A stretch of 64,000 nucleotides of DNA, taken from positions 1 to 64,000 of the forward strand of contig JALVXC010000015.1 of the NCBI GenBank assembly GCA_027038275.1, read 5' to 3'. Each line of letters begins with the position of its first letter. Position 1 is the stretch's first letter. This DNA is from Campylobacteraceae bacterium. Lineage in GTDB: Bacteria > Campylobacterota > Campylobacteria > Campylobacterales > Sulfurovaceae. The position numbers and the translations under genes were made by a program. The notes under the pieces are model-generated. The model was not told where the DNA came from and ran no database searches. It was given only the letters and a program-made list of their open reading frames with translations. Shown piece by piece: positions 18,184-52,484 of this stretch.

Positions 18184-19155
18184 TTATACAGAAAAATCAA
18201 AATAATAGATACCTTCATCTTGTAATGAAACATCTATTGTTGTTCTTCCATAGTTTTCTAAATCTTTTTTTGTAATTTTTGTACCCAATGGTAAATTCAA
18301 TCTATATCGAATATACTCTCCCATTAAGCTTTTTTTAGGAGCAGAACTTATCTGTTTAGGATATATTATTCCATTTTCTTTTTGACTACCTTCTAACAAT
18401 CCATCCATTGTTGTACCATCATCCCAAATAATTTCAATAATGTCATTATGTCTATGAGGACGACCACCTTTTACAACCATTGTTGAAAAGTCTTGTTTTG
18501 GAGGAAATAGCGTTGGATAAGAACGAATATACTCCTTTTTGATAGCGATATAGGCATCATTTTTAGCTACATGTCCTCGACTAAACATCCAGTTTAATCC
18601 ACTTTTTTCTGCAACATTATTATTTCTATCTAAAAGTGACATTCTACAAAATTGTGTCGAAATTTGAATAGTAGGAGTAATAAGAGTATTACCATTATTT
18701 TGTACATTTTCAATCTCTGTACATAAAATAGAGTTATTCATAACTCTATCAATATACTCTTGTAGTGGTTGAAAAGTATCATGCGTAGTCTCTGCTAATA
18801 TCTCTCTATATGGTGTAGTTAATCCATTCGTTGAAAAATTTGCAGAACCAATTAGGGCATGTTGAATTTGATTTTGATTTTTCCAAATATAACATTTTGA
18901 ATGAATAGGAACAGTTGAATAGTAGATATTTACATTTGGAATATTTATTTGATGATAAATAAGAGCTTGATGTAAGCGTTCTTGAATACCTCTATCTCCA
19001 TACATTCCATAAATAACTGTTGAATTAAGAGGTAAATTTTCCAATCTAGCTATAGGGTTTGGTCCTAAATAACCTGATAAAACAATTAACTCATTTGAAA
19101 GTACTGTTTCATGTCTATGAAAGATAATCTCTTCTAAATTTGTATTGAACAACAT
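18184..19155 (-). CDS. NgoFVII-family (PLD-fold) type II restriction endonuclease
   Basis: HSKCYIWKNQ...ALIGSANFSTNG (HxK plus SAN motif), adjacent to two C5 methyltransferases. Confidence 0.82.
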   Translation of the reverse strand: MLFNTNLEEIIFHRHETVLSNELIVLSGYLGPNPIARLENLPLNSTVIYGMYGDRGIQERLHQALIYHQINIPNVNIYYSTVPIHSKCYIWKNQNQIQHALIGSANFSTNGLTTPYREILAETTHDTFQPLQEYIDRVMNNSILCTEIENVQNNGNTLITPTIQISTQFCRMSLLDRNNNVAEKSGLNWMFSRGHVAKNDAYIAIKKEYIRSYPTLFPPKQDFSTMVVKGGRPHRHNDIIEIIWDDGTTMDGLLEGSQKENGIIYPKQISSAPKKSLMGEYIRYRLNLPLGTKITKKDLENYGRTTIDVSLQDEGIYYFDFSV

Positions 19156-20366
19156 TAAAAATACCTCTTTAATAAAAGTTCAACAGCTTGGGCAATAACC
19201 TTAGCTAGTTTAGGAGGAACTGCATTTCCAATCATTTTATAACAAGCTCCTTGACTTCCAATAAATTCAAAGTCATCATCAAAAGTTTGTAACCTAGCAG
19301 CCTCTCTTGGAGTAATGCTTCGTGCCTGTTTATAGTCAGGATGAATATGCCGTAAACCATCTTTATATAGATGTGCAGGTATTGTATTGCTCTGTTTTTT
19401 ATAGTCTAAAACATTATATTTATGAAAAGATGAACTCTTTCCTGTTTTTTCAAAATATAATCTCTTAAGTGACTCTGTATCAGGATATTTTACTGAACCA
19501 TTTTGAACATCTAAAGCAAGTTCAAAAAAAATCTCTTGGTCTCTTTTGCTATGAAAACGAGGAGTATGATTTTTAATTTTTGATTTATTGTAGTGAGATA
19601 CACGTAACTCTTGATTTTCAAAAGGATAAAGTGGCTCTAAATCACCTATTGCTTCTTGAACATCTATTTTTTTAGAGACTTTAAAAGTTGGTAAAATATG
19701 CTTATAAAAATCTTCTAAAATATCATTTGGATTTTCATTTGTTAATTTTTTATTGATACCTATAATAATAACTCTTTTTCTAATTTGAGGTACACCATAA
19801 TCTGACGAGTCCAACAGTGCCATCCCTTTTAAATCTCTAGCAATAACATAACCCTCTTTCTCAAAATCACTTCGTATTCTATCTATAATACTAATACCAT
19901 TTGGTTTAGCACTAAGTATCCCTTGAACATTTTCAAAAACAAATAGTTTTGGTTGAAACTCTTTAACTACCTTCAAATAGTTTTCAAATAGATAATTTCT
20001 ATAATCACAAGACATACCATTTTTATCTTGAACTCGTCCAGCAATTGAATAGGCTTGGCAAGGTGGACCACCTATAATCAAATCTATAGTTGTATCTTTA
20101 ATTAATTTTTTAAGTCCGATATGCTCTCCATATTCAACATCATGAAATCCATTAAGCAACTCATCCATTCTTTGAATATCAAAATAGATAACTTTTTTAT
20201 CAACATCTTTTATCTTCCATTTTGTTTTTAAGCGATATTTTAAAGTATTTAATGCACTCTTATCCCACTCAACAAAAGCGTAAGGTTCAAACCTATTAGT
20301 CTGCTCAAAACCATCAGTAAGTCCACCACATCCAGCAAATAGGTCTATATAGCTATATTTTTTCAT
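19155..20366 (-). CDS. DNA (cytosine-5-)-methyltransferase 1 of the RM island
   Basis: DLFAGCGGLTDGF, GGPPCQAYSIAGR, FENVQG, GVPQIRKRVIIIG, IGNAVPP. Confidence 0.95.
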   Translation of the reverse strand: MKKYSYIDLFAGCGGLTDGFEQTNRFEPYAFVEWDKSALNTLKYRLKTKWKIKDVDKKVIYFDIQRMDELLNGFHDVEYGEHIGLKKLIKDTTIDLIIGGPPCQAYSIAGRVQDKNGMSCDYRNYLFENYLKVVKEFQPKLFVFENVQGILSAKPNGISIIDRIRSDFEKEGYVIARDLKGMALLDSSDYGVPQIRKRVIIIGINKKLTNENPNDILEDFYKHILPTFKVSKKIDVQEAIGDLEPLYPFENQELRVSHYNKSKIKNHTPRFHSKRDQEIFFELALDVQNGSVKYPDTESLKRLYFEKTGKSSSFHKYNVLDYKKQSNTIPAHLYKDGLRHIHPDYKQARSITPREAARLQTFDDDFEFIGSQGACYKMIGNAVPPKLAKVIAQAVELLLKRYF

Positions 20367-21423
20367 TATTTAATACCTCTTTTAGCTTCATAGCAATATG
20401 ATACCCAAGTAGAGGAGGCACAGCATTGCCAACTTGTCTATATTGTGCTGTTTTACTACCTAAGAAAATAAAATCATCAGGAAAAGACTGTAACCGTGCA
20501 TTCTCTCTTACTGTTGGAACACGATTATATTTATAATGAAAATGATTTCTGTGTCCTGTATCTATCGTTTTAGAAGGTTTTTTACTATGATACCTTGTCC
20601 AAGCTTCATTAAACTTTCTACTCTCTCCAACCCCTTTAGGTAAATCTTTATGATTCCCACCCTCTGGAACTTGCGAAATAACATCTACCACCAAATCTGT
20701 ATGTTTTGTTCCTATATGATTATGTAGACGACTAGCATTTTTTCTCATTAGTTTTTGATAACTAGAAGTAGGCTCTTTTGGGTACTCTATATTATCTTTA
20801 CCTAAATTATCTTCTAATGAAGGTAAATCAGATATTGCCTCTTCACATGTTACATAGTCTTTCTCATCTCTAATAGCATTTGGAAATATAAATTTACCAT
20901 AAGGTTTATCTAGTCCAACAAAAAAAAGTCTTTTTCTAATTTGAGGAACTCCATAATCGGGTGCATATAGAATTTTAGAACTATGAGTATATCCATTCTC
21001 TTCAAAATTTCTCTCTATCTCTAATTTAGCTTTTCCTTTGTATAGTGTTGCTAACCCTGGTACATTCTCTATAATAATCGCTTTTGGCTTCTCTTTTAGT
21101 GCTTTTGAGATTTCAAATACAGAATAAAAAAGTTTATTTCGTTCATCATCTTCTTTTCTTGAACCAGTTAAAGAGAAACCTTGACAAGGAGGTCCAGCAA
21201 TAATAACATCAACTCCACCTACATCATCAAGAAATTTTACAATCTTATCTATACTTTTATTATCTGATAAATCTAAATTAAAAGTTTGTGAATTTTTATG
21301 ATTATACTTAAATGTTTCAAGAGCCAAATCAGCATTATCAACTCCTAATAATACTTCATATCCTGCTTCTTGAAAACCATATGAAAAACCACCACATCCT
21401 GAAAAAAGGTCTAATACTTTCAA
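20353..21423 (-). CDS. DNA (cytosine-5-)-methyltransferase 2 of the RM island
   Basis: DLFSGCGGFSYGF, AGPPCQGFSLTGSR, IENVPG, GVPQIRKRLFFVG, VGNAVPP. Confidence 0.95.
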   Translation of the reverse strand: MKVLDLFSGCGGFSYGFQEAGYEVLLGVDNADLALETFKYNHKNSQTFNLDLSDNKSIDKIVKFLDDVGGVDVIIAGPPCQGFSLTGSRKEDDERNKLFYSVFEISKALKEKPKAIIIENVPGLATLYKGKAKLEIERNFEENGYTHSSKILYAPDYGVPQIRKRLFFVGLDKPYGKFIFPNAIRDEKDYVTCEEAISDLPSLEDNLGKDNIEYPKEPTSSYQKLMRKNASRLHNHIGTKHTDLVVDVISQVPEGGNHKDLPKGVGESRKFNEAWTRYHSKKPSKTIDTGHRNHFHYKYNRVPTVRENARLQSFPDDFIFLGSKTAQYRQVGNAVPPLLGYHIAMKLKEVLNNEKI

Positions 21424-37151: not shown

Positions 37152-39017
37152 TTACAATAATCTACGTTTTAAGAAGAAAACAAATTTAATTAGTTTAATC
37201 TGTCTACTAATTCGAGTTGGCTCTTTTAATAGTCTATATAACCACTCCAAATTTAGATTTAAAAATATCTTTGGAGCTCTCTTTTTATACCCTGCATATA
37301 TATCAAAACTTCCACCCAACCCCATATAGAGTGCTGGGTGTACTTTAATTAACTCATCCATTAAAAACTCCTGCATTGGGCTTCCTTGTGCTACATAGAC
37401 AATATCTGGTTTTAAACGCTTTAAAGATGCTTTTAAAACCTCTTTTTCATCTCTGTTCATAAATCCATCTCTATAGCCTAATATCTTTATATTAGGATAC
37501 TCTTGTTTTAATTTTTTTACTGTATTTTCAATCACTAAACTACTTGAACCTATAAGATAAAAAGTTTTTGTATTGTGATATTTTTTAATAATATCTAGCC
37601 AAAATTCGCTACCTGGAATCTTAATAGATTCAACTCCTCTCTCTTTTAATGCAATCACAGCACCTATTCCATCAGGATAACCTATATTATTGTTAATTAT
37701 ATCTCTTAATTTTTTATCCTCTTTAATAATTTTTTCAGCATTAATAGCAATTAAAATCTTTTTTATATCGACTATCTCATCTAAAAAGTGTGATTTACTC
37801 TTAAATGAGTGAATCTTTACCTTATTAATAAAATCAGTAATGACATCACTATCTTTAATATTAAAATAGAAAGTAAAAGCATAAAATACCCAAGCTTCAG
37901 CCCACCTCATATAGGGAATCTTAGAGGAGATTGATTTTTTAAGCTGATAGTAAAAATAACCTCTTTTATCTTGCATATTTACAATTGTCCACTTTATTAC
38001 TCTATCAACCAACTCTCTATACTCCTCTAGTCTATCTAGCCGAGAGAGAGTAACAATAAGCTGTGTAGTAGAGCGTATATCGATAGGATAGGTTTGAGTA
38101 TCATAATATTTTGGTGTTCCATCTTCTAAAAAAAAAGTTTCTATATAGTACTTTAACCCTTTATTAATAACAGAATCAAAACGGTTGTCTCCAGAGTACC
38201 TTTGATACTCATAGATTGACTCTAAATTATAACCCATATGAACACTGTCTATCCAAGATTGAATCTTTAAATCACCATAAATCCATGCACCATCTTCTCT
38301 TTGCTCCTCCACACAAGCCTCAATAGATGCTCTAGCTACTGCTAAAAGTATCTCATTTTTAGTATAACTATAGACTCGTGCTAAAAGTTTACTTCCCATT
38401 AAAGAGGCATGATAGATGCAACTCTTATCATAAGGAGAGCAAGAGAAGATAAAACCCTTCCCTTTTTGAGTATGGTTTAAATCATTTAAGATAAACTCTG
38501 TACTACTAATAGCCGTATCTAAATATTTTTGATTACCTGTTATATCATAAGCATCTAAAAGAGCATAAGAGACAAATGCTGTAACTACTATATTAGGTGT
38601 GTTTTTAGGAAGGAAAAAAGCTCTTGATTGCCAATCAAAATTATATCCCCAACAACTACCAGAGTACTCTGTTGATTGTAACTCTATTAATTTATCTGCT
38701 AAAAAAGTTATCTTCTCTAAATACTCTTCATCTTTTTCTAGTTTATATAGATTACAATATCCTGTTAAAAATAAACCTAATCCTTTAGGATTGTACTCTT
38801 TTTTAATAAGAGAAATAGTTCTTAGATTTATTGGATTTCGTTTAAATAGCTGTATCCACAGAAGTCTAAAAAACATTATACTGTCTAGTCGCATAGTCTG
38901 AAATAGTTTACTATTTAACCCATCATAAGGATCCCAACCTTTAAACCCTTCATTTTCACAATAATTTTTTAATTGAGCAAAGCTCTCTTGCATTAAAACT
39001 CTATTTGCTAAATTCAT
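37152..39017 (-). CDS. Fusion protein: N-terminal alpha/alpha-toroid-like domain plus C-terminal WecG/TagA/CpsF glycosyltransferase domain
   Basis: N-term YSGSCWGYNFDW, EDGAWIYG; C-term YPDGIGAV, GGSFDIYAGYKKRAPKIFLNLNLEWLYRLLKEPTRI. Confidence 0.8.
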   Translation of the reverse strand: MNLANRVLMQESFAQLKNYCENEGFKGWDPYDGLNSKLFQTMRLDSIMFFRLLWIQLFKRNPINLRTISLIKKEYNPKGLGLFLTGYCNLYKLEKDEEYLEKITFLADKLIELQSTEYSGSCWGYNFDWQSRAFFLPKNTPNIVVTAFVSYALLDAYDITGNQKYLDTAISSTEFILNDLNHTQKGKGFIFSCSPYDKSCIYHASLMGSKLLARVYSYTKNEILLAVARASIEACVEEQREDGAWIYGDLKIQSWIDSVHMGYNLESIYEYQRYSGDNRFDSVINKGLKYYIETFFLEDGTPKYYDTQTYPIDIRSTTQLIVTLSRLDRLEEYRELVDRVIKWTIVNMQDKRGYFYYQLKKSISSKIPYMRWAEAWVFYAFTFYFNIKDSDVITDFINKVKIHSFKSKSHFLDEIVDIKKILIAINAEKIIKEDKKLRDIINNNIGYPDGIGAVIALKERGVESIKIPGSEFWLDIIKKYHNTKTFYLIGSSSLVIENTVKKLKQEYPNIKILGYRDGFMNRDEKEVLKASLKRLKPDIVYVAQGSPMQEFLMDELIKVHPALYMGLGGSFDIYAGYKKRAPKIFLNLNLEWLYRLLKEPTRISRQIKLIKFVFFLKRRLL

Positions 39018-39031
39018 AATTTTCTCACTTT

Positions 39032-40345
39032 TTATATAGTTAATTTATCTTTTCTATTATTTTTATAGGTTATGACATAATAGATTAAAAAATAGTAGGT
39101 AATTGTAATTCCAGAGCTATATATTAACTCTGATGAGTAGCTAAAAAAATCAATAAAAAATATAATTACAATTCCCAACACAGACAATATCTTAACAACA
39201 TCCTCTTCTCTAGTTACCTCTGAATACTTTTTGTAAACCTGAGTAAAGAGGTAGATTTGAAAAATAACAAAGATTATTACTCCTACCAAACCCAACTGCA
39301 TCATCATCCAAACAACTCCTAATCTTCCACCATATCCTATATTGTACTTTTCCAACAGAGGGTTCTCATATGGTAAAAAAGCAGAGGTTACAATATCTCC
39401 AGGTCCATAACCAACTAAAATATTCATTAATCCTCCATCTTCCAATCTCTTAAATGCCAAAAAGGGTGCATCTCCTCGCCCATCACCTTGAACTTTAGAA
39501 CCTTTAAGTTTTAAAGTATTGTAATCTTTTGTAAACTTTATTAAATAGTCAATATCAATAGAACCTCCAACTTTATGTTCTGGATTCGCTCTAGGATTAA
39601 GAGAGACAAAAAGTGCAAAAATAATAAGTAGATAGATAACAACCTTAGATATATTTTTAAAAAAATCTATATTAAAAATAAAGGAGTCGGTCTTTTTTTT
39701 TGCATACAAAATAGTTAAAGAGATAAATAGTATAAATATATAGAAAAGTATTCCTAATTTATTACTTATTAATCCTATAGACATAAAGAGTAAAAGAAGA
39801 ATAATATACTTAATCTTATTTTGATTAAGATAAAGGCTAATCATATAAGAGATAGCAAAAAGGGGCATAACAGTTGCTAAACTTCCTTCTGAAACACTAA
39901 TTGTTCCTACAATCTTTTCAAGTGTTCCACCCAAAACAATAAGTTTTATAAATGCAGCTGGTATTTGTATTAGAAATAGTATTTGTAACAATTTAAATAA
40001 ACTCTCTCTCTCCTCCTCTTTAAACTCTATATTCAACAGTGCATATAAGAGAAGAATATAGATATAGAATTTTCTTAAAAAAAGTACTAGATGTAAAGAG
40101 GTTACATCTGTTAATAGAAAAGAGATAATAATAAACATAAAAAATATTATGTTTATTTTTGAACCCAATACAATAATATCTCTTCTCTCTACCATAAAAA
40201 TCAAAGAGATTAAAAATATGCTAATAATTAATAAATCTATCAAAAGCTGTATGTATGTTTCTGCTATCCCTATAAGTTCAAATACTCCCTTAAAAAATGA
40301 GAGAATAAATAATAGGTATGTAATATTGTATGCTATTTTTCTCAT
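39032..40345 (-). CDS. O-antigen ligase/Wzy-like polysaccharide polymerase (multi-TM)
   Basis: About 10 hydrophobic segments with a large loop, glycan locus context. Confidence 0.65.
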   Translation of the reverse strand: MRKIAYNITYLLFILSFFKGVFELIGIAETYIQLLIDLLIISIFLISLIFMVERRDIIVLGSKINIIFFMFIIISFLLTDVTSLHLVLFLRKFYIYILLLYALLNIEFKEEERESLFKLLQILFLIQIPAAFIKLIVLGGTLEKIVGTISVSEGSLATVMPLFAISYMISLYLNQNKIKYIILLLLFMSIGLISNKLGILFYIFILFISLTILYAKKKTDSFIFNIDFFKNISKVVIYLLIIFALFVSLNPRANPEHKVGGSIDIDYLIKFTKDYNTLKLKGSKVQGDGRGDAPFLAFKRLEDGGLMNILVGYGPGDIVTSAFLPYENPLLEKYNIGYGGRLGVVWMMMQLGLVGVIIFVIFQIYLFTQVYKKYSEVTREEDVVKILSVLGIVIIFFIDFFSYSSELIYSSGITITYYFLIYYVITYKNNRKDKLTI

Positions 40346-40520: not shown

Positions 40521-42788
40521 ATGAACAAAATAGAAACTCTACCAAGAAGAGAAGATAAGGATATATACTTATCAGATTTCATAAAAACAATTTCACCCTA
40601 CAAATGGTCAATTTTATTTGTCACTTTAATAGTTTTATTACTAACTAGCATCTACCTCTATTTTACCGTTCCAACCTATGAATCCTCAGCTACAATAAAA
40701 ATAAAAACTGACAAAGGTTTAAATAAAACAACCTCTAAAGATTTAATACATGATGCATTATCTGAATCAGATACTAGTAGTATAGAGCAAGAGATAGCTA
40801 TTTTAAAGAGCTTTTATATCAATAAAAAAGTAATTGAAAAACTAAATATGCAAATATTATACTTTAAAAAAGATGGTTATAAAAAAAATGATTTATTTAA
40901 TTCACCTATTGAGATTCAAAATATTACTATTGAAGATAGCAATATAAATAAAAAAGAGTTTATTTTACATCCAGAGAAAAATGGATTTAAAATTGAACAG
41001 AATAATAAAGTAAGTCAACTTTTTCAATATAATCAAGAGATTAATCTTAAAGATTTTAAATGTACAATCAAAAAAAAATCAGATTTCTTTTTTCCTATAT
41101 ACTTTAAGTTAAATGGTAGTAGTAGAGATATTTATGAGAATATAGTAAAACAGAGACTTAAAGTGTCTCAACTAAACATAGATGTATCTATTATAAAGAT
41201 ATCATATCAGGACACTTCAATTAAAAGAGCTAATACATATATTAATGAGTTGATTAATACCTATTTAGAACAGAGAGTTAAAAGTAAAAATAGAAAAAAC
41301 AAAAAGGTTTTAAACTTTATAAATCAACAACTTGAAACTACAGGAGAGAGATTACACAAGTCAGAAATGGCACTTCAGGAATATAAAGTAAAAAATAAAG
41401 TAATCGAACCTACAAAACAATCAAAACTATTACTTGAGAGATTAAATAACATAGAGATAGAGATAGAAGAGAATAGACTAAAAGAGAGTTTAATCAAAAA
41501 ACTACTAAGACTTTTAAAAAGTAATCAAAATTTAGGAAATATGATACCAATTTTAAAAGATTTAAATGAGCAACCAACTATTGAACTGATTCAAAAAATA
41601 GAGAATATGAAACAGAATATAGATAAATTAAGAATAGATTTTACAGACAGGTATCCTGAAATAGTACTACTCCGAAATCAAATAAAAAAGAGTCAAAATA
41701 AAGTTTATGGTAATATAAAAAATATACGCCTAAATATTGAACAACGTATTAAAAATCTCAACCAACAAAAAATGGAAAATGAGATAAAATTAAAAAAATT
41801 ACCTAAAGAAGAGAAAAATCTTATTCAACTACAGAGAAATTATGATGTAAATGCAAAGATATACTCCTATCTTTTAGAAAAAAAATCTGAAAACGATTTG
41901 AAGAGGGTTGCAACCCTCTCTGATTATGAGGTTATCGACTCAGCCTATTCAAGCAATAAACCTATTAAACCTAAAAAAGCTATGCTTCTTATTGCCTCTG
42001 GAATAATTGGTTTAATGCTAGGTGTTTTTATAGCCTATATTAGAAATAGATTAAGTAAAAAAGTACAAACTATAAGAGATATACAAAAGTTAACAACTCT
42101 ACCTCTATATGGAGAGATACCTATAGATTCAAAAAAAGATACAGTTTGGGAGGTACTTGAACATCCTAACTCTATATTAACTGCCTATTTTCGTAAACTT
42201 AGAACAACACTTCAACTCCTTACAAACAAAACAAAAGGAAATAGTATACTTATAACTTCGAGTATGCCAAAGGAAGGGAAAATAGAGATTATACTCAACT
42301 TAACATATCTTTTTCAATTAGCAGGATATAAATCAATAGTTATAGACCTAGACCTATATCAACCTACCCTACATAACTATTTTAATATAAAATCAAATAA
42401 AGGAGTAAGTACCTATCTAAATGGAAAAGACAATATTGAAGATATAACTTTTAAAACGAAACATCCACACCCAGATATTATCTTAGCAGGAGAAGATATA
42501 TTAAATCCATCAGAGCTTCTCTTATCTCAAAAGTTAAGAGTATTCTTCTCAACATTAGAGAAAAACTATGATTATATCTTTATTAATGCTTCACCACTAA
42601 TGGTATCGGAAGAGACACTATATCTTATGCAATTTACAGATATAAATCTAATTGTTATAAAAGAGAACTTTACTAAAAAATCGTTTGTAACAAACTTGAA
42701 TAAAATACTTAAAGAGTATAGATTTAAAAATATTCGCTTACTCTTTAATACTAAAAATAGAGGAAAAGATAGTGATTTACTATATTGA
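40521..42788 (+). CDS. Wzz/GNVR chain-length determinant fused to a BY-kinase-like domain with degenerate Walker motifs
   Basis: Wzz N-terminus with TM, coiled coil, second TM, then SSMPKEGKIEII and VIDLDLYQPTLHNYF. Confidence 0.85.
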   Translation: MNKIETLPRREDKDIYLSDFIKTISPYKWSILFVTLIVLLLTSIYLYFTVPTYESSATIKIKTDKGLNKTTSKDLIHDALSESDTSSIEQEIAILKSFYINKKVIEKLNMQILYFKKDGYKKNDLFNSPIEIQNITIEDSNINKKEFILHPEKNGFKIEQNNKVSQLFQYNQEINLKDFKCTIKKKSDFFFPIYFKLNGSSRDIYENIVKQRLKVSQLNIDVSIIKISYQDTSIKRANTYINELINTYLEQRVKSKNRKNKKVLNFINQQLETTGERLHKSEMALQEYKVKNKVIEPTKQSKLLLERLNNIEIEIEENRLKESLIKKLLRLLKSNQNLGNMIPILKDLNEQPTIELIQKIENMKQNIDKLRIDFTDRYPEIVLLRNQIKKSQNKVYGNIKNIRLNIEQRIKNLNQQKMENEIKLKKLPKEEKNLIQLQRNYDVNAKIYSYLLEKKSENDLKRVATLSDYEVIDSAYSSNKPIKPKKAMLLIASGIIGLMLGVFIAYIRNRLSKKVQTIRDIQKLTTLPLYGEIPIDSKKDTVWEVLEHPNSILTAYFRKLRTTLQLLTNKTKGNSILITSSMPKEGKIEIILNLTYLFQLAGYKSIVIDLDLYQPTLHNYFNIKSNKGVSTYLNGKDNIEDITFKTKHPHPDIILAGEDILNPSELLLSQKLRVFFSTLEKNYDYIFINASPLMVSEETLYLMQFTDINLIVIKENFTKKSFVTNLNKILKEYRFKNIRLLFNTKNRGKDSDLLY

Positions 42789-44368: not shown

Positions 44369-46567
44369 ATGAAAAAACAGATTATACAAATTTTGCTACT
44401 TGTTCTCTTTTCATCACTACTTTTTAGTACTACATATGAAGATGGAACAAACAATACAGGTTGGCATTTAGAGTCAACTACCCAAGATGGTAATTTAGTG
44501 ACAACTACTATAGATAATGAAGAAGGGAATATTGTAAGTTTAGAAGTAAACTCTACAGAGCTCTTTTTGGGTGGATATAGTTGGGATGGAAATTTACGTT
44601 GGAATAATACCCAAGAGAAAATCTTCAACATACGATTCAAAACTACTGATAGGTTCGATATTGTACTACTTGTAGTTAATGGTAATGGAGAGAACAAATA
44701 CATTCACTACTATGAGAGTATTGATCTTGATAATACAGAAGATAAGAGATATATATCTCTAAACCAAAATACAAGAGATGGAAACTGGCACACTATTGAG
44801 AGAGATTTAGAAGCTGATTTAGGTGAGTCTATATCTAAAGTAAATGGTGTTTTAATTAGACGTGCCAATATAGATGTTGCATTTATAAAACTTACAAACA
44901 ATGCAACAACTTATGAAGATGGAACAAACAATACAGGATGGCATTTAGAGTCAACTACCCAAGATGGTAATTTAGTAACACCTACTACGGATAACCCAGA
45001 GGGAAATATTGTAAATTTAAAGACAAACTCTACAGAGCTCTTTTTAGGTGGATATAGTTGGGATGGAAATTTACGTTGGAATAATACCCAAGAGAAAACC
45101 TTTAACATACGATTCAAAACTACTGATGACTTTGATATTGTACTACTTGTAGCTAATAGTAATGGAGAGAACAGATACATTCACTACTATGAGAGTAGTG
45201 ATGAAGATGATACACAAACCCATAAATATATATCTCTAAACCAAAACACAAGAGATGGGAACTGGCATACCATTAAGAGAGACTTAGAAGCCGATTTAGG
45301 AGAATCTATATCTAAAGTAAATGGTGTTTTAATCAGACGTTCAAATATAGATGTATCATTTGTAAAACTAACTTCTCAATTAGAAGATTTTGGTACACTA
45401 TATGAAGATGCCCAAGATGGAACTACAGATGGGTGGAGTGTTTTTGACAATACACCTCAAGACGCAACTATTACCAATATATATGATGAAGAGAAGAGAA
45501 GTAAAGTCATACAACTAAATGGTGATGGGACTAATAACGGATATCAATTTGGAGGAGCATGGAATAACTACAATGATAAAATAGTCAAATGGAGCATGAA
45601 GTGTGATAAAGATTTTATTATCTATGTACAGGTTAAGACACAAAAAGGTAATAGAACACTAGTCTATACCCCTCATGATTCAGGTAGTGGAAAAGATGCA
45701 CAAAGTAGTGAGATATTTCATGGATTGGGTGCATTATCAAACGATGGAGAGTGGCATACCTTTGCTAGAAATTTAGAAGCTGACTTAAAAAGATATGAGA
45801 GTGACAATGAGCTACTATATACTAAAGGAATTCTTGTTAGAGGAGATATGAGAATAGATGATATTGGACTCTATACTTCTGTTAACTCTGTCAAGGTTAA
45901 GAGTGCAAATCATGGAGTTACTCCTGGAGTAGCCTTTACATTTGACGATTTAGCTAGTGTAAGTAGTTGGAACTTGGCTAGAAATATTTTTCAAGAAAAT
46001 GGAATAGATGCCACCTTCTTTGTAGACCATTGGCATCAAGCATCTCCTGAACAACTAAATATATTACAAACACTACGTGCAGATGGTCACCAGATTGCTT
46101 GTCATACCTATTCTCACTTAAGTATATATGACCCAAAATATGACAATGAAGAGGATAAAGCAGAAGCCTATCTACAAGACCAAGTTTTACCAGCCATAGA
46201 GAATATGCAACAAGATGGATTTAACCCTGTTAGTTTTGCATACCCATATACTAGATACACAGGAAGACATCATGCTAAAATAAAAAGATATCTTCCATCT
46301 ATACGTGCTTTCCTATCTAATACAATGAGTATTGATAAAATTAGTGGAAATACACTAGATGATATTAAAGCAGAAATGGAAAAAGTTAAAACTAATAAAG
46401 AGATTGTTACTTTTATTGCACATGTTATAGTACCAGAAGGAGAAGAACAGACCTCTGACTATAGTATTAAAGAACAGAAGTTAAAAGATATTATAGATGA
46501 AGCAAAAAGATTAGGTTTAAAGTTCTATCGTTTTGATGAGGCTTATAATCTATCAAAAATAAGATAA
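44369..46567 (+). CDS. Secreted polysaccharide deacetylase (NodB/CE4-like) with three N-terminal repeat domains
   Basis: Signal peptide; repeats TYEDGTNNTGWHLESTTQDGNLV; CE4 motifs AFTFDD and HTYSHLS. Confidence 0.82.
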   Translation: MKKQIIQILLLVLFSSLLFSTTYEDGTNNTGWHLESTTQDGNLVTTTIDNEEGNIVSLEVNSTELFLGGYSWDGNLRWNNTQEKIFNIRFKTTDRFDIVLLVVNGNGENKYIHYYESIDLDNTEDKRYISLNQNTRDGNWHTIERDLEADLGESISKVNGVLIRRANIDVAFIKLTNNATTYEDGTNNTGWHLESTTQDGNLVTPTTDNPEGNIVNLKTNSTELFLGGYSWDGNLRWNNTQEKTFNIRFKTTDDFDIVLLVANSNGENRYIHYYESSDEDDTQTHKYISLNQNTRDGNWHTIKRDLEADLGESISKVNGVLIRRSNIDVSFVKLTSQLEDFGTLYEDAQDGTTDGWSVFDNTPQDATITNIYDEEKRSKVIQLNGDGTNNGYQFGGAWNNYNDKIVKWSMKCDKDFIIYVQVKTQKGNRTLVYTPHDSGSGKDAQSSEIFHGLGALSNDGEWHTFARNLEADLKRYESDNELLYTKGILVRGDMRIDDIGLYTSVNSVKVKSANHGVTPGVAFTFDDLASVSSWNLARNIFQENGIDATFFVDHWHQASPEQLNILQTLRADGHQIACHTYSHLSIYDPKYDNEEDKAEAYLQDQVLPAIENMQQDGFNPVSFAYPYTRYTGRHHAKIKRYLPSIRAFLSNTMSIDKISGNTLDDIKAEMEKVKTNKEIVTFIAHVIVPEGEEQTSDYSIKEQKLKDIIDEAKRLGLKFYRFDEAYNLSKIR
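44432..45385 (+). repeat. Two tandem near-identical 477-bp units (44432-44908, 44909-45385) inside the deacetylase gene; a diverged third copy follows
   Basis: Long matching stretches, e.g. gatggaacaaacaatacagg...cagagctcttttt...ggtggatatagttgggatggaaatttacgttggaataatacccaagagaaa. Confidence 0.85.
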
Positions 46568-46676
46568 GATTAGCACAACAATATTTAATATTAATTAACA
46601 TTTAACTATTTTTATGATATAATATTCTTTTTTGTTAAAACAACTAAGAGCTATAATATCTAATAAAAGAGTTAAT

Positions 46677-47759
46677 ATGTCTATAAAAAAAAGTAACATA
46701 CTCCTAATTGTTGGAAACTTATCTGCACCTGGAGGAGTAAGTGTATTTTGGAACTCACTATTGAGTTCCTATAGTAAAACCGACTATTTCAATTTTAATA
46801 TTCTTCAAATTGGTGGACATGGAAAGAATATCTTTGGACCAATAATTGACCAGTGGAAATTAAATCATAGAGTTAAATCAAATCAAAATCTCCAACTTGG
46901 TATTGTTAACCCATCTCTATTAAATAGAAGTTTTTTTAGAGATGCCCTCTTTTCCAAACAGATGGCAAGACATAATCTACCTTTTGTAGTCTTCTTTCAT
47001 GGTTGGGACTTAGAGTTTGAAAAGATAGTTACTAAAAAATATATAAATTTCTTCTTAAATAGTTTTGGAAAAGCTAAAAAGATTTTTGTTCTCTCCCAAG
47101 AGTTTAAAGATAAGATTATTGAGTGGGGCTACAAAGGTGAAGTAGTTGTCCAAACAACTACTGTAGATGCCTCACTAACAAATAACTTCTCACTAGAAGA
47201 AAAAAATAGAACCTCAACAAATACCACCACTATAAAAATCCTTTTTCTTTCAAGAGTCATAGTAGAAAAAGGTATTTTTGAGTTGCTAGAAGCATTTGAA
47301 AATCTAAATAAACGAGTAGATAATATTGAACTAATTATTGCTGGTGATGGTGAAGCTTTCAATCAATTAAAAAAAATAGTAAAAGGTAAAAAAAACATTA
47401 GATTAACAGGCTTTGTAGAAGGTGAAAAGAAAATAGCTCTTTTAAAAGAGAGTGACCTATATATACTTCCTAGCTATACAGAGGGGTTACCTATATCTGT
47501 ACTAGAGGCTATGTTGTTTGGATTACCAGTTATAACTACCAAAGTTGGTGGTCTAAAGAGTTTTTTTAAAGATAAAAAGATGGGATATTTTATTGAACCT
47601 AAAAGCATAATTGAGATAGAAGAGAAGATTGAACTCATACTTTCAGATAAACAAAGACTAAAAGAGATGGGTGAGTTTAACTACCACTATGCACAAGAGG
47701 AGTTAACCAATAATATAGTTGCAAAAAGACTATATGCTCAATTAAAGGAATTAATATAA
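46677..47759 (+). CDS. Glycosyltransferase family 4 (GT-B)
   Basis: SYTEGLPISVLEAMLFGLPVITTKVGGL; likely start at the ATG at 46677 rather than 46632. Confidence 0.87.
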   Translation: MSIKKSNILLIVGNLSAPGGVSVFWNSLLSSYSKTDYFNFNILQIGGHGKNIFGPIIDQWKLNHRVKSNQNLQLGIVNPSLLNRSFFRDALFSKQMARHNLPFVVFFHGWDLEFEKIVTKKYINFFLNSFGKAKKIFVLSQEFKDKIIEWGYKGEVVVQTTTVDASLTNNFSLEEKNRTSTNTTTIKILFLSRVIVEKGIFELLEAFENLNKRVDNIELIIAGDGEAFNQLKKIVKGKKNIRLTGFVEGEKKIALLKESDLYILPSYTEGLPISVLEAMLFGLPVITTKVGGLKSFFKDKKMGYFIEPKSIIEIEEKIELILSDKQRLKEMGEFNYHYAQEELTNNIVAKRLYAQLKELI

Positions 47760-48925
47760 TGATAAAAAAAGAACTAATAGAGAAGTATCTATTAAAGAGT
47801 GACCTATCTACTTATGACCCATATGATGTATGGAAGACCAACATAGGTGATAAAATAAAAAAACTCTACTATAAAAATAAATATTTGGGTCTTATACCTG
47901 CTGGTGCTGTAACTATTTACGACCTCTATATAAATAACAGTAAACGAAATGGCTACTACAAACAAGAGTACCCTATAGCTAGAGCACAAGCATCTATTGC
48001 ACTTTTAAACCTATATAAACAAGAAAAAAATCTTAAATATATTGAATATGCAAAAAAGCATATTGATTGGTTATTGCAAAATAACTCTATAGGATATAGT
48101 GGCTACTGTTGGGGAATGAACTATGACTGGGTATACACAGCAACTGAAACTTACGATAAAAATACACCCTTTATCACACACACACCCTACCCTTTAGAGG
48201 CATTGGTTCTATACTACAATATTACTAAAGATAAAACTGTTTTAGATGCTATTAAATCTATTTTCCTCTTTTTAGAAAAAGATATTAAAGTAATGAGAGA
48301 GACCGAAGATATGCTTATTTTATCTTATGGAGCTCAAAAAGATAGAATAGTAACAAATGCAAATAGCTATGGTATCTATATGTATGCTCTACTTATTGAC
48401 TTTTTTCCAGAGAAAGAGGAGTATATTAAAAGCAAGATAAAAAAACTTTACAACTTCATAAAATCTGCACAACAAGATGATGGCTCATGGCTATATGCCC
48501 CTTATGATAAAGATACATTTATAGACTGTTTTCATAGTGCTATTGTAGTAAAAAATCTTATTAAAACTAGTAAATTAACCTATTTAGAAGATGTTGAAAC
48601 TATCATAACTAAAGGATATGACTATATTATAGAGAATTTTATGAATAAAAAGTATAACTTGTGTAAACGCTTCTCTATAAGTAATAAAATATCTATTACT
48701 AAATTTGACCTCTATGATAATGCAGAGGTATTAAACTTAGCAATTATGCTAAATGACAAAGAGACTATTCAAAAGCTCTCAAATAGTATTAAAAAATATT
48801 TTATTAATAAAGATAATGATATTGCCTCTATGATTGACCTATGTGGAAAACCAAAAAATTTTAATCATCTTAGATGGGCTGTTGTCCCCTACTTAAATAC
48901 TTTATCAAAAATGGAGAACTATTAA
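47759..48925 (+). CDS. Standalone alpha/alpha-toroid-like protein, paralog of the N-terminal domain of 37152-39017
   Basis: Shared YSGYCWGMNYDW, DDGSWLY, FIDCFHS with the fusion protein; stop/start overlap with the upstream GT4. Confidence 0.7.
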   Translation: MIKKELIEKYLLKSDLSTYDPYDVWKTNIGDKIKKLYYKNKYLGLIPAGAVTIYDLYINNSKRNGYYKQEYPIARAQASIALLNLYKQEKNLKYIEYAKKHIDWLLQNNSIGYSGYCWGMNYDWVYTATETYDKNTPFITHTPYPLEALVLYYNITKDKTVLDAIKSIFLFLEKDIKVMRETEDMLILSYGAQKDRIVTNANSYGIYMYALLIDFFPEKEEYIKSKIKKLYNFIKSAQQDDGSWLYAPYDKDTFIDCFHSAIVVKNLIKTSKLTYLEDVETIITKGYDYIIENFMNKKYNLCKRFSISNKISITKFDLYDNAEVLNLAIMLNDKETIQKLSNSIKKYFINKDNDIASMIDLCGKPKNFNHLRWAVVPYLNTLSKMENY

Positions 48926-48926
48926 T

Positions 48927-50780
48927 ATGTGTGGAATTTTAGGAGCAGTCAATAAATCTTTTGAAAAAGATACACTAGAGCTTATCTCTCATCGTGGACC
49001 AGATGATAGTGATATTATACACCTTGATATTGAGAAGGACTCTATATATTTAGGACATGTTCGACTCTCTATTCAAGACTTAAGCTCAGCTGGACATCAA
49101 CCTATGTATTCAGCCAATAAAAAATTTATTATTATCTTTAATGGTGAAATCTATAATCACCTAGAGCTTAGAGAGAGACTTGATGATATTGATTTTAATG
49201 GTCATAGTGATACAGAGACCATTGTTAACTATATAGCAAAATATGGTATTGAGTCAGCAAAAGAGTTTAATGGTATTTTTGCCTTTTCGCTTCTGGATAT
49301 AGAGAGAAAAAAACTATATATTATGCGAGACAGATTTGGAGTAAAACCACTCTACTACTACCATAAAGATAGAGAGTTTATATTCTCTTCAGAGATGAAA
49401 CCGATTTTAAAGATGATTTCTAACTTTAAACTAGATATGAATTCTGTAAATGAGTACTTAGTTTTACGATACAACCCCTCTCCTAAAACAATAGTAGAAG
49501 GTATTAAAAAGGTCTACCCTGGTGAGATACTAGAGTATGACTTAAATGAGCATATTTTAGACAAAGTCACCAATATTAATGAAGAGCTAATACCCAATAT
49601 AAAAATAGATAGAAACAGAAGTGAAGCCTATTGGATTGATGCTGTAAGTGAAAAACTAGAGATTGCAGTAAAAAGACAGATGATAGGTGATGTAGAGGTA
49701 GGAAGCTTCCTTTCAGGGGGTATAGACTCTGCACTAGTAACAGCCATAGCATCAAAATATACAAAAAACAAAATAAAAACATTTTGTATAGGCTTTAATG
49801 GTTCTGCACAATTTAGTGAAGCTGACGACGCAAAAAGGTCTGCTGAGATTTTAGGTACAGAACACTACGATATTATTGCAAATGCTGATGAATATATGAA
49901 AATTCTTGAAAAGTCTAGCTATATTAATGAAGAGCCTAACGGTACAGTAAACACCTTTGCTCAATATGAAGTGAGTAGACTAGGAGCTAAATATACCAAA
50001 GTTATCTTAGCAGGGCAAGGGGCTGATGAAATTTTTATGGGCTATAAAAAATACTCTGCTGAATTAAAAAGAGAGAGATACCTCTCTCTTATTAAACTCG
50101 CTAAACAGTTCAATTTTTTATTCTCTAGTCCAAAGTACCATAAGATGCAACGTGCATTATATAGCTTAACAGAGGAAAATATATTAACTCGTTTTGAAAA
50201 AGTCTATACTGTTTACCAAGAAGAGGAAAAAAGAAGATTACTAGAGAGTAAATTTAATAACCATCAAACAGGTCTATACTACTTCTACAACCTTATTCCC
50301 AAAGAGTTAAGTAGCTTAGATAAAATGTCTATTCTCGATACCTATACCTCTCTAAGCGATGAGCTACTTATGTATGGAGACAAAACAACCATGGCAACCT
50401 CTATTGAGATGAGAGTTCCTTTTTTAGACAATGACCTTGTAGCACTTGTCCAAAAGATTCCAAATGAGTATAAAATCAAAAATGGAGTACATAAATATAT
50501 TTTAAAAGAGGTAGCTAAGAGGTATCTTCCAGATGAGATTATAAACCGTCCTAAAAAGGGTTTTGATATGCCTAGTTTAGAGTGGTTTCAAGGTGATTTA
50601 AACAGTGATATTATGCAACTATTATGTTCAAAAGATTCATTAATTACTAACTACATAGATAAAAATGAGATAGAAAATCTTATTTTAAAATATAAAAACA
50701 AAAAAGAGTTTGATGTGCGTAAGATTTATCTATTGATGAGTATAGAGCATCTTTTGCGTCTATTAAATAAGAGATTATAA
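48927..50780 (+). CDS. asnB: Asparagine synthetase (glutamine-hydrolysing)/amidotransferase
   Basis: MCGILGAV (Cys2), SHRGPDD, NGEIYNH, SGGIDSALV, EMRVPFLDNDLV. Confidence 0.92.
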   Translation: MCGILGAVNKSFEKDTLELISHRGPDDSDIIHLDIEKDSIYLGHVRLSIQDLSSAGHQPMYSANKKFIIIFNGEIYNHLELRERLDDIDFNGHSDTETIVNYIAKYGIESAKEFNGIFAFSLLDIERKKLYIMRDRFGVKPLYYYHKDREFIFSSEMKPILKMISNFKLDMNSVNEYLVLRYNPSPKTIVEGIKKVYPGEILEYDLNEHILDKVTNINEELIPNIKIDRNRSEAYWIDAVSEKLEIAVKRQMIGDVEVGSFLSGGIDSALVTAIASKYTKNKIKTFCIGFNGSAQFSEADDAKRSAEILGTEHYDIIANADEYMKILEKSSYINEEPNGTVNTFAQYEVSRLGAKYTKVILAGQGADEIFMGYKKYSAELKRERYLSLIKLAKQFNFLFSSPKYHKMQRALYSLTEENILTRFEKVYTVYQEEEKRRLLESKFNNHQTGLYYFYNLIPKELSSLDKMSILDTYTSLSDELLMYGDKTTMATSIEMRVPFLDNDLVALVQKIPNEYKIKNGVHKYILKEVAKRYLPDEIINRPKKGFDMPSLEWFQGDLNSDIMQLLCSKDSLITNYIDKNEIENLILKYKNKKEFDVRKIYLLMSIEHLLRLLNKRL

Positions 50781-50816: not shown

Positions 50817-52484
50817 TCATCTCTTCACCCAAACCCTCTTACCATCAAAAACCACACCCATTTTTAAAATATTGATATATCCTCTCTTTTTAACATCAAT
50901 CTCATACTGCTTCTCTTCTATCTGTTTTAGAGCCTTATCAAGAGCTTTCTCTTTAGTCTCCTCTTCAAACTCATCTATTGTTTTTAACTCCATTATAATT
51001 GCTAATCTGTTTTTATCTTCTTTATGAAGTAAAATAATATCAACTCTACCAAGCCCTGACTCTCTATTTGAGATTACCTCATAATCATTAAGGCTTATTA
51101 AAATACCAAGTAAAAAGGCATGATAAACTGCCTCTTCATTTTTTTTGTTAACATCATAAAAAGAGAGTGTCTCTAATACAAACTCACTAAAGAGTCTCTC
51201 AAAGAGTTTAATCTCTCCATCAATAAGTGCATTTAGTAAAACTCTTAATCTATCATCTCTAAAACTCTCATTTAACCAACTAGAGATTATATTTCTAAAG
51301 ATGTAGTGAACCTCTTTATTGGGAATAGTCAAATCACAATGGTAGGTTTTGTTTATTAACTCTCTGTTTACACACTTTAAGTAGCCACTAAAAAAGAGCA
51401 AAGAGTAGATATTTTTGTCATTTTTCTCTATCTCACTAAAGACAATATTGCTATCTATTTGAGTTCTAATGCTTTCACCATTTAGCCACGCCTCTAAACT
51501 CTTTTTAAAATTTAAAGAGGAGATATTGATTAAGTGTTTTAGTAACTCATTAGAAGATGTATTTGCCCAATATGGTAGGAGTTCATGTTTTGGATTGTCT
51601 ATAAAATTTAGAATTGACCAAGGGTTAAATATGGTCTCCTCTCCTATCTTATAACCATTGTATGAGTCACTTACCTCTTCATATTTATCACTTAATCCAA
51701 AATCAGCCAATATCTGCTTTGTCTCATTGACAGTAAAACCAAATCTATTACTATATCTTGTATCAGATATTGTATAAGTTGCAATATTATTAAGCCCACT
51801 AAAAATTGACTCTCTGCTAACTCTTAAAATTCCTGTAATAACTCCTCTATATAAAAAATCATTATCTTTAAATGCTCCACTAAGTAGGTTTCTAATAAAC
51901 TCTATAAATTCGTTGTAGTACCCATGCAAGTATGAGGCGTGGATTGGGGTGTCGTACTCGTCTATGAGGATTACTACTTGTTGGTTATATTTTTGAGATA
52001 GTAGTTTAGAGAGTAGAGATAAGCTCTCTTCAATACTCGATTGTGTAGCTTTTCCCTCTAATATATTAAGATATTCTAATTTATCCAAAAAGTCTAAACT
52101 CTCTACATCTATCTCTTTATAGTGCCTCATAAACTCCCTTCTAATAAGTGAATAGAGTTTAATATAACTACTCTCAAAATCTCTCTGTTTTATATCTTTA
52201 AAACTCAAAAAGATAACAGGATATCTGTTTAGATGTTCTCTAAACTCTTCTGTTTGATAGATAGCTAAATCTTTAAAAAGCTCTTCGCTATCTTCTCTAT
52301 TTTCAAAAAAATAGCGAAGCATAGAGAGATTTAGAGTCTTACCAAAACGTCTAGGTCTTGGCAAAAGTGTTATCTGTGCATTTGAGTTTATGAGTTCTTG
52401 GATTATTAATGATTTGTCTACAAAATAGTTATTGTCTTTTATTACTCTTCTAAAATCGCTTATGCCTATAGGTAGTCTTTTCAT
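50817..52484 (-). CDS. AAA-ATPase-like (PF09820-type)/DUF1703 PD-(D/E)XK nuclease-superfamily protein
   Basis: LPIGISDFRRVIKDNNYFVDKS, LPRPRRFGKTLNLSML, LIDEYDTPIH, C-terminal GRVDIILLHKEDKNRLAIIMELK. Confidence 0.85.
   Translation of the reverse strand: MKRLPIGISDFRRVIKDNNYFVDKSLIIQELINSNAQITLLPRPRRFGKTLNLSMLRYFFENREDSEELFKDLAIYQTEEFREHLNRYPVIFLSFKDIKQRDFESSYIKLYSLIRREFMRHYKEIDVESLDFLDKLEYLNILEGKATQSSIEESLSLLSKLLSQKYNQQVVILIDEYDTPIHASYLHGYYNEFIEFIRNLLSGAFKDNDFLYRGVITGILRVSRESIFSGLNNIATYTISDTRYSNRFGFTVNETKQILADFGLSDKYEEVSDSYNGYKIGEETIFNPWSILNFIDNPKHELLPYWANTSSNELLKHLINISSLNFKKSLEAWLNGESIRTQIDSNIVFSEIEKNDKNIYSLLFFSGYLKCVNRELINKTYHCDLTIPNKEVHYIFRNIISSWLNESFRDDRLRVLLNALIDGEIKLFERLFSEFVLETLSFYDVNKKNEEAVYHAFLLGILISLNDYEVISNRESGLGRVDIILLHKEDKNRLAIIMELKTIDEFEEETKEKALDKALKQIEEKQYEIDVKKRGYINILKMGVVFDGKRVWVKR

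Follow-up and report, generated by a model that had tools for sequence, protein, structure and literature searches.

A toroid–GT26 fusion protein from a Sulfurovaceae bacterium and a possible family of uronosyl C5-epimerases partnered with glycosyltransferases

L-uronic acids such as L-GulNAcA and L-IdoA shape biofilm polysaccharides. One residue of the Vibrio polysaccharide is 2-acetamido-2-deoxy-alpha-L-guluronic acid, for which an origin from D-ManNAcA through C-5 inversion has been proposed (PMC3901696), and a review credits this residue to an unknown C5-epimerase (PMC4432689); among the genes of the vps cluster, vpsJ is listed as being of unknown function (PMC5109742). A described enzyme of comparable activity is Agl32 from Halobacterium salinarum, an all-helical, single-domain D-glucuronyl C5-epimerase that converts GlcA to IdoA on a lipid-linked glycan and whose nearest folds are the AGE epimerases (PMC13308652). 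On the transferase side, the closest systems are the GT26 enzymes TagA/TarA and WecG, and the roles of the TagA residues used below, the catalytic base and the appendage arginines, have been described (PMC6493773). We analyzed a 64,000-nucleotide stretch of DNA (the window) from a Sulfurovaceae bacterium, in which one gene, P0001, joins a helical toroid to a GT26 transferase:

37152..39017, minus strand: P0001, the toroid–GT26 fusion, 621 aa, supported by its open reading frame and translation, by the same fusion in a second species (genome G011, locus L005) and by the lack of an internal start
37848..39017, minus strand: toroid domain, residues 1 to about 390, of the family found at the VpsJ position, supported by an AlphaFold model, Foldseek, and identity to stand-alone toroids
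37152..37841, minus strand: GT26 (WecG/TagA/CpsF) domain, residues about 393 to 621, supported by PF03808, the TagA fold, and mapped catalytic residues

The reading frame of P0001 opens with ATG and runs for 621 aa without an internal stop. A search for the same architecture, as proposed in an earlier note on this DNA, yielded one further case among the 34 genomes of the genus: G011, a second species, carries the same toroid–GT26 join at 79–81% identity to P0001, although its copy is cut by a contig end at toroid residue 266. The recurrence of the join rules out an assembly artefact. From residue 383 to residue 431 the frame holds no ATG, GTG, or TTG codon; the GT26 part is therefore made only as a fusion and not separately from an internal start, and a whole-protein search of the window's genome with P0001 found no other GT26. 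The toroid is 57–71% identical to stand-alone toroids, and the alignment of P0001 to stand-alone GT26 proteins starts near their first residues, which indicates that both proteins entered the fusion at full length. How the two domains sit relative to each other is uncertain, given the pTM of 0.66 of the full-length AlphaFold model (mean pLDDT, 87.4). P0001 is a lineage-specific merger of a conserved neighboring gene pair. The earlier note had not recognized the architecture as characterized, and we likewise found no characterized WecG/TagA–toroid fusion in the papers searched.

The assignment of the C-terminal part to the TagA/CpsF family, made in the earlier note from the letters alone, was borne out. 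Residues 446 to 606 match PF03808 with an E-value of 3.6e-43 (147.7 bits; cut-off, 27.4), the protein matches TIGR00696 with 157.3 bits (cut-off, 69), and the predicted model of the C-terminus aligns with TagA/TarA crystal structures at TM scores of 0.79–0.86, normalized on the target, which places it in the TagA (GT-E) fold. Like TagA/TarA and WecG, P0001 has the catalytic aspartate, the Gln/Glu pair, and the appendage arginines: D65, the catalytic base of TagA, maps to D449, N39 to N426, Q167/E168 to Q549/E550, D191 to D572, and R214/R221/R224 to R595/R602/R605. The solved enzymes differ in having no toroid. Two TagA positions are not conserved, T37 being A424 and R83 being K466 in P0001. 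Thr37 contacts ManNAc in TagA, and alanine at its equivalent is constant throughout the GT26 subfamily of the window (the window-type), so this replacement is, as far as the alignment goes, a specificity difference and not a loss of GT26 membership. The domain looks catalytically intact, and its donor may differ from UDP-ManNAc.

The claim that the N-terminal 400 or so residues form an alpha/alpha-toroid also held up. The AlphaFold model of residues 1 to 410 (mean pLDDT, 85.5; pTM, 0.88) shows helices paired into a barrel of the (alpha/alpha)6 type, and Foldseek matched it to cellobiose 2-epimerases, GH88, GH76, and GH105 with E-values down to 5.5e-9 and TM scores of 0.5–0.6, at only 10–16% identity to the nearest solved folds. 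Family assignment was less straightforward. The best Foldseek matches are to the AGE superfamily and cellobiose 2-epimerase, but these act on free sugars at C2, and none of 19 toroids matched the AGE family PF07221 at an E-value of 0.1; we therefore did not file the toroid there. The N-terminus of P0001 matches Pfam GH88, the unsaturated glucuronyl hydrolases, weakly but above the cut-off (E 9.7e-9 over 115 residues), yet the match spans only positions 34 to 137 of a 352-position model, about a third; GH127 and GH76 matches fell below the cut-off. Filing with the Glce-type D-glucuronyl C5-epimerases (PF06662) was rejected as well, since the match of P0003 reached 14.4 bits against a cut-off of 23.3 and Pfam found no beta-sandwich domain in P0001. 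When 20 genomes were searched with PF06662 for genuine bacterial C5-epimerases, only weak matches came up, several of them on toroid genes. Public records give some toroid homologs (L107, L111, L143-L149) misleading names, such as aspartate-semialdehyde dehydrogenase, antibiotic ABC transporter permease, or prenyltransferase/squalene oxidase repeat protein; homologs are also annotated as hypothetical protein. The name delta-aminolevulinic acid dehydratase, as used for such polysaccharide-locus proteins, led to no useful paper.

To place the fusion among its relatives, 84,980 species genomes were scanned with the toroid, using peptide patterns from two related sequences. The scan gave 240 stretches encoding a relative; the best 80 were examined, a set that consists of the closest relatives and does not sample the family at random. 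Most belong to Bacteroidota; a few come from Campylobacterota and one from Balneolota. From 81 scored rows, the repeat row of a genome scored twice (L004, identical to L069) and L027, whose contig ends at the toroid, were left out, giving 79 genomes. Among these, from the best 80 of 240 loci, GT26 is the next gene downstream of the toroid in 58, lies within the locus in 63, and is absent in 16, and none of the 79 has a toroid–GT26 fusion; the toroid is usually a separate protein of about 390 aa with no fused partner. The coupling proposed in the earlier note is thus real as a fusion, but the partnership is not peculiar to it. The pair is found in Bacteroidota, Balneolota, Campylobacterota, and Vibrio-type vps clusters, where it takes the vpsJ-vpsK position; its carriers include Aquimarina (L033) and Winogradskyella. 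Genes for GT4 or Zn-ADH/Gfo-Idh-MocA proteins often lie upstream of the toroid, and genes for Bac_transf, WecB, or nucleotide-sugar dehydrogenases downstream. Genome G024 has the two parts as neighbors, a 388-aa toroid gene followed by a separate 253-aa GT26 gene with an 11-base overlap.

The two partners also correspond in kind. Toroids paired with window-type GT26 separate in the tree from those paired with canonical GT26, although the two GT26 subfamilies are only about 24–28% identical to each other; toroid clades follow GT26 subfamilies. In two Sulfurovum loci (L028 and L029), the toroid adjoins a GT26 of the window's own subfamily. Within the genus, window-type GT26 was present in 9 of the 11 genomes with either toroid and in none of the 23 without (Fisher p 1e-6, uncorrected for relatedness or genome incompleteness). 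Three loci deserve a separate remark. The Sulfurovum toroid at L029:5450-6825 is split into two overlapping reading frames by a frameshift, reflecting either error or decay. Among the best 80 of 240 loci, the toroid nearest to that of the window (71%) is L027, on a contig labeled Thermotoga sp.; it groups with Sulfurovum, and the record is probably mis-binned. A 628-aa reading frame of the same bacterial family (L022:928-2811; genome G268), considered as a further toroid fusion, instead joins GT26 to a Bac_transf-like initiating sugar transferase.

Several of the pairs lie near genes that could supply a uronate. The Vibrio vps-like locus encodes WecB and UDP-ManNAc dehydrogenase (NF008286, 719.8 bits; cut-off, 459); Prevotella L088 has UDP-ManNAc dehydrogenase (515.7 bits) between toroid and GT26, followed by WecB; and in the genome of the window, the genes for UDP-ManNAc dehydrogenase (547.6 bits) and WecB lie on contigs other than that of the window. 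These supply genes point to a uronate as the GT26 donor. In some flavobacterial loci, a UDP-glucose 6-dehydrogenase-like gene takes their place, and the substrates therefore probably vary from one lineage to another.

Toroid homologs were found in Vibrio, Pseudoalteromonas, Burkholderia, Methanosarcina, and haloarchaea. In Vibrio sp. THAF191d (38% identity to the window's toroid), the toroid has a GT4 gene on one side and a GT26 gene on the other, where a vps-like cluster ends, and in Pseudoalteromonas sp. THAF3 (36% identity), one acyltransferase gene separates toroid and GT26; in both clusters the toroid comes after GT4 and before GT26 as a gene of its own, whereas in the window the two are fused. 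Matched by gene position alone, this place in the vps-like clusters is that of vpsJ before vpsK (VC0926-VC0927) in V. cholerae. The toroids of Haloferax mediterranei and Salinigranum lie with genes for a nucleotide-sugar dehydrogenase, WecB, a DegT aminotransferase, and Gfo/Idh/MocA proteins, a set that we take to resemble diacetamido-uronate synthesis. The archaeal toroids were considered as members of aglB-anchored islands, but the plasmid-borne cases examined sit in polysaccharide-like clusters with no aglB seen nearby. By its description, Agl32 resembles the toroid: both are single all-helical domains with AGE epimerases as nearest folds, and Agl32 acts on a lipid-linked glycan, as we propose for the toroid. 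Unlike P0001, it belongs to archaeal N-glycosylation, with no fusion reported. Agl32 requires that the following sugar be in place.

We propose, with confidence a little short of even, that the GT26 domain of P0001 adds a uronate to a lipid-linked acceptor and that the toroid family C5-epimerizes the same residue before export. P0001, encoded in an exopolysaccharide locus, would work in the cytosol in association with the membrane. Its GT26 domain would transfer a single sugar to a polyprenyl-diphosphate-linked acceptor, the donor most likely being a UDP-linked uronic acid (UDP-ManNAcA, for example), and toroids would act as uronosyl C5-epimerases on that lipid-linked residue after transfer and before export, the fusion keeping the two steps together at the membrane. 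The product expected of an inverting WecG-type enzyme is beta-D-ManNAcA, which on C5 inversion becomes alpha-L-GulNAcA, as in alginate; the toroid would carry out this conversion, and with GlcA-using partners that of GlcA to IdoA. We favor C5-epimerization because of the gene pair, the uronate supply genes, the L-GulNAcA of Vibrio, and the Agl32 precedent. The observed support comprises both folds, the conserved pair, the match of toroid clades to GT26 subfamilies, the retained GT26 active-site residues, and the uronate supply genes near several pairs. Against the proposal stand the fit of the toroid fold to hydrolases (GH88, GH76), the sub-threshold PF06662 match of P0003, the UDP-glucose dehydrogenase at some pairs, the 16 of 79 toroids without a GT26 nearby (among the best 80 of 240), and the loss from the window's toroid of 5 of 45 otherwise universal positions.

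The wider form of the proposal is plausible but open to considerable doubt: the toroid would represent a new, widespread class of uronosyl C5-epimerases acting on the cytoplasmic lipid-linked repeat unit and directly coupled to GT26, VpsJ would be the epimerase of Vibrio polysaccharide, and P0001 would serve as the Rosetta stone linking the two partners. If so, epimerization in the cytoplasm would proceed one lipid-linked residue at a time, whereas alginate epimerases work on the polymer, and the misleading database names of toroid homologs would be corrected. For the missing Vibrio enzyme, the pair offers a specific candidate, the vpsJ-type toroid, with the residue newly added by its partner as the substrate and with conserved positions to target by mutation. 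In the literature searched, we found neither the fusion nor the generality of the pair nor a connection with the missing epimerase; each part is of a known or recognizable kind.

Whether the window's own toroid would still perform this step is a separate matter. As a reference set, we took the 85 alignment columns in which at least 95% of the 79 toroids agree. The window's toroid departs at eight of them (Y193C, V201I, N203H, L207M, F259V, T261M, H315R, and M377V), against a maximum of four in any other of the 79, whereas the GT26 half departs at 3 of 35 near-invariant positions, within the normal range. Five of the eight (Y193, V201, N203, F259, and H315) are among 45 positions at which no more than one of 84 sequences, those of Vibrio, Burkholderia, and archaea included, departs; the toroids of the vps-like clusters keep N203, H315, Y193, and F259, which the window's does not. 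The changes at four of these positions lie at:

38409..38441, minus strand: codons 193 to 203, with Y193C and N203H at near-invariant positions, from codon inspection
38241..38243, minus strand: codon 259, F259V at a near-invariant position beside D257 and H260
38073..38075, minus strand: codon 315, H315R at a near-invariant position that is H in the sister fusion L005

The departures cluster mainly in three short segments (193–207, 259–261, and 315) that sit at loop ends before barrel helices, with helix boundaries taken from the AlphaFold model, and we take these segments to be the putative active-site face. The changes all replace one or two bases of a codon, and none shifts the frame. A generally fast rate of evolution in the fused toroid does not explain them, as its branch is only modestly longer and the signal sits at near-invariant sites. 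The changes at H315 and P317, at least, came after the fusion, since the sister fusion L005 keeps both residues. With near-invariant residues lost, the window's copy may be impaired, its own activity reduced, changed, or gone. The sugar modification linked to transfer that the earlier note suggested is the best reading of the evidence, but the window's copy may no longer do the modifying.

A second toroid, P0002, lies in the same locus, the relevant genes of which are:

39032..40345, minus strand: 437-aa hydrophobic protein with no Pfam match, its gene 14 bases upstream of the fusion, a candidate Wzy/ligase-type membrane protein
40521..42788, plus strand: Wzc-like chain-length/tyrosine-kinase protein
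46632..47759, plus strand: GT4 glycosyltransferase upstream of P0002, assigned by Pfam, the order kept in sister genomes
47759..48925, plus strand: P0002, a stand-alone toroid of 388 aa, 28% identical to the fused toroid
48927..50780, plus strand: AsnB-type amidotransferase downstream of P0002, followed in sister genomes by a stand-alone GT26

P0002 keeps Y193, N203, and F259, which are common to both toroid types. In the sister genomes examined, its orthologs lie in the order GT4, toroid, (acetyltransferase), AsnB, GT26. The window has GT4, P0002, and AsnB without the GT26 that comes next in those genomes, and the only GT26 of its locus is the fused gene at the other end. P0002 is a possible substitute for the fused toroid.

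There is a real, if minority, chance that the fused toroid is a remnant in decay, with the transferase as the part that matters and P0002 doing the toroid's job. This reading concerns the window's copy only and is compatible with epimerization by the family at large. The eight lost positions, set beside a normal GT26 half, and the presence of P0002 speak for it; the intact frame, the well-predicted fold, the retention of D257, H260, D313, and R371, the H315 and P317 kept in L005, and the only modest branch lengths speak against it. It is unlikely that toroids are non-catalytic partners that bind the acceptor or act as scaffolds, holding the lipid-linked glycan or positioning GT26, with the fusion fixing the complex. 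Such a role would fit the tight pairing, the fusion, and the retention of frame and fold by the window's toroid despite its losses, but the 45 near-universal positions, many of them polar or aromatic and shared by bacteria and archaea, look like an active site, and toroids also occur in loci without GT26. That toroids are hydrolases or lyase-like editing enzymes, trimming or releasing wrong lipid-linked glycans, is suggested by GH88 Pfam matches in 18 of 19 members (best E 4.3e-10) and by the fold matches to GH88, GH76, and GH105, but seems improbable, as strict pairing with one transferase would then mean reversing that transferase's work, and the co-located uronate supply genes and the Agl32 precedent favor epimerization.

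Three further features of the window were noted. Right after AsnB, at the place of the sister genomes' GT26, lies a minus-strand gene (50817-52484) for an AAA-ATPase-like protein with a PD-(D/E)XK nuclease domain. Near P0002, a plus-strand gene (44369-46567) encodes a 732-aa protein of unusual domain combination, with three repeats matching PF21174, the D-glucuronyl C5-epimerase beta-sandwich, and a C-terminal polysaccharide deacetylase domain. At 18184-21423 on the minus strand, an NgoFVII-type endonuclease is followed by two C5-cytosine methyltransferases, a restriction-modification set.
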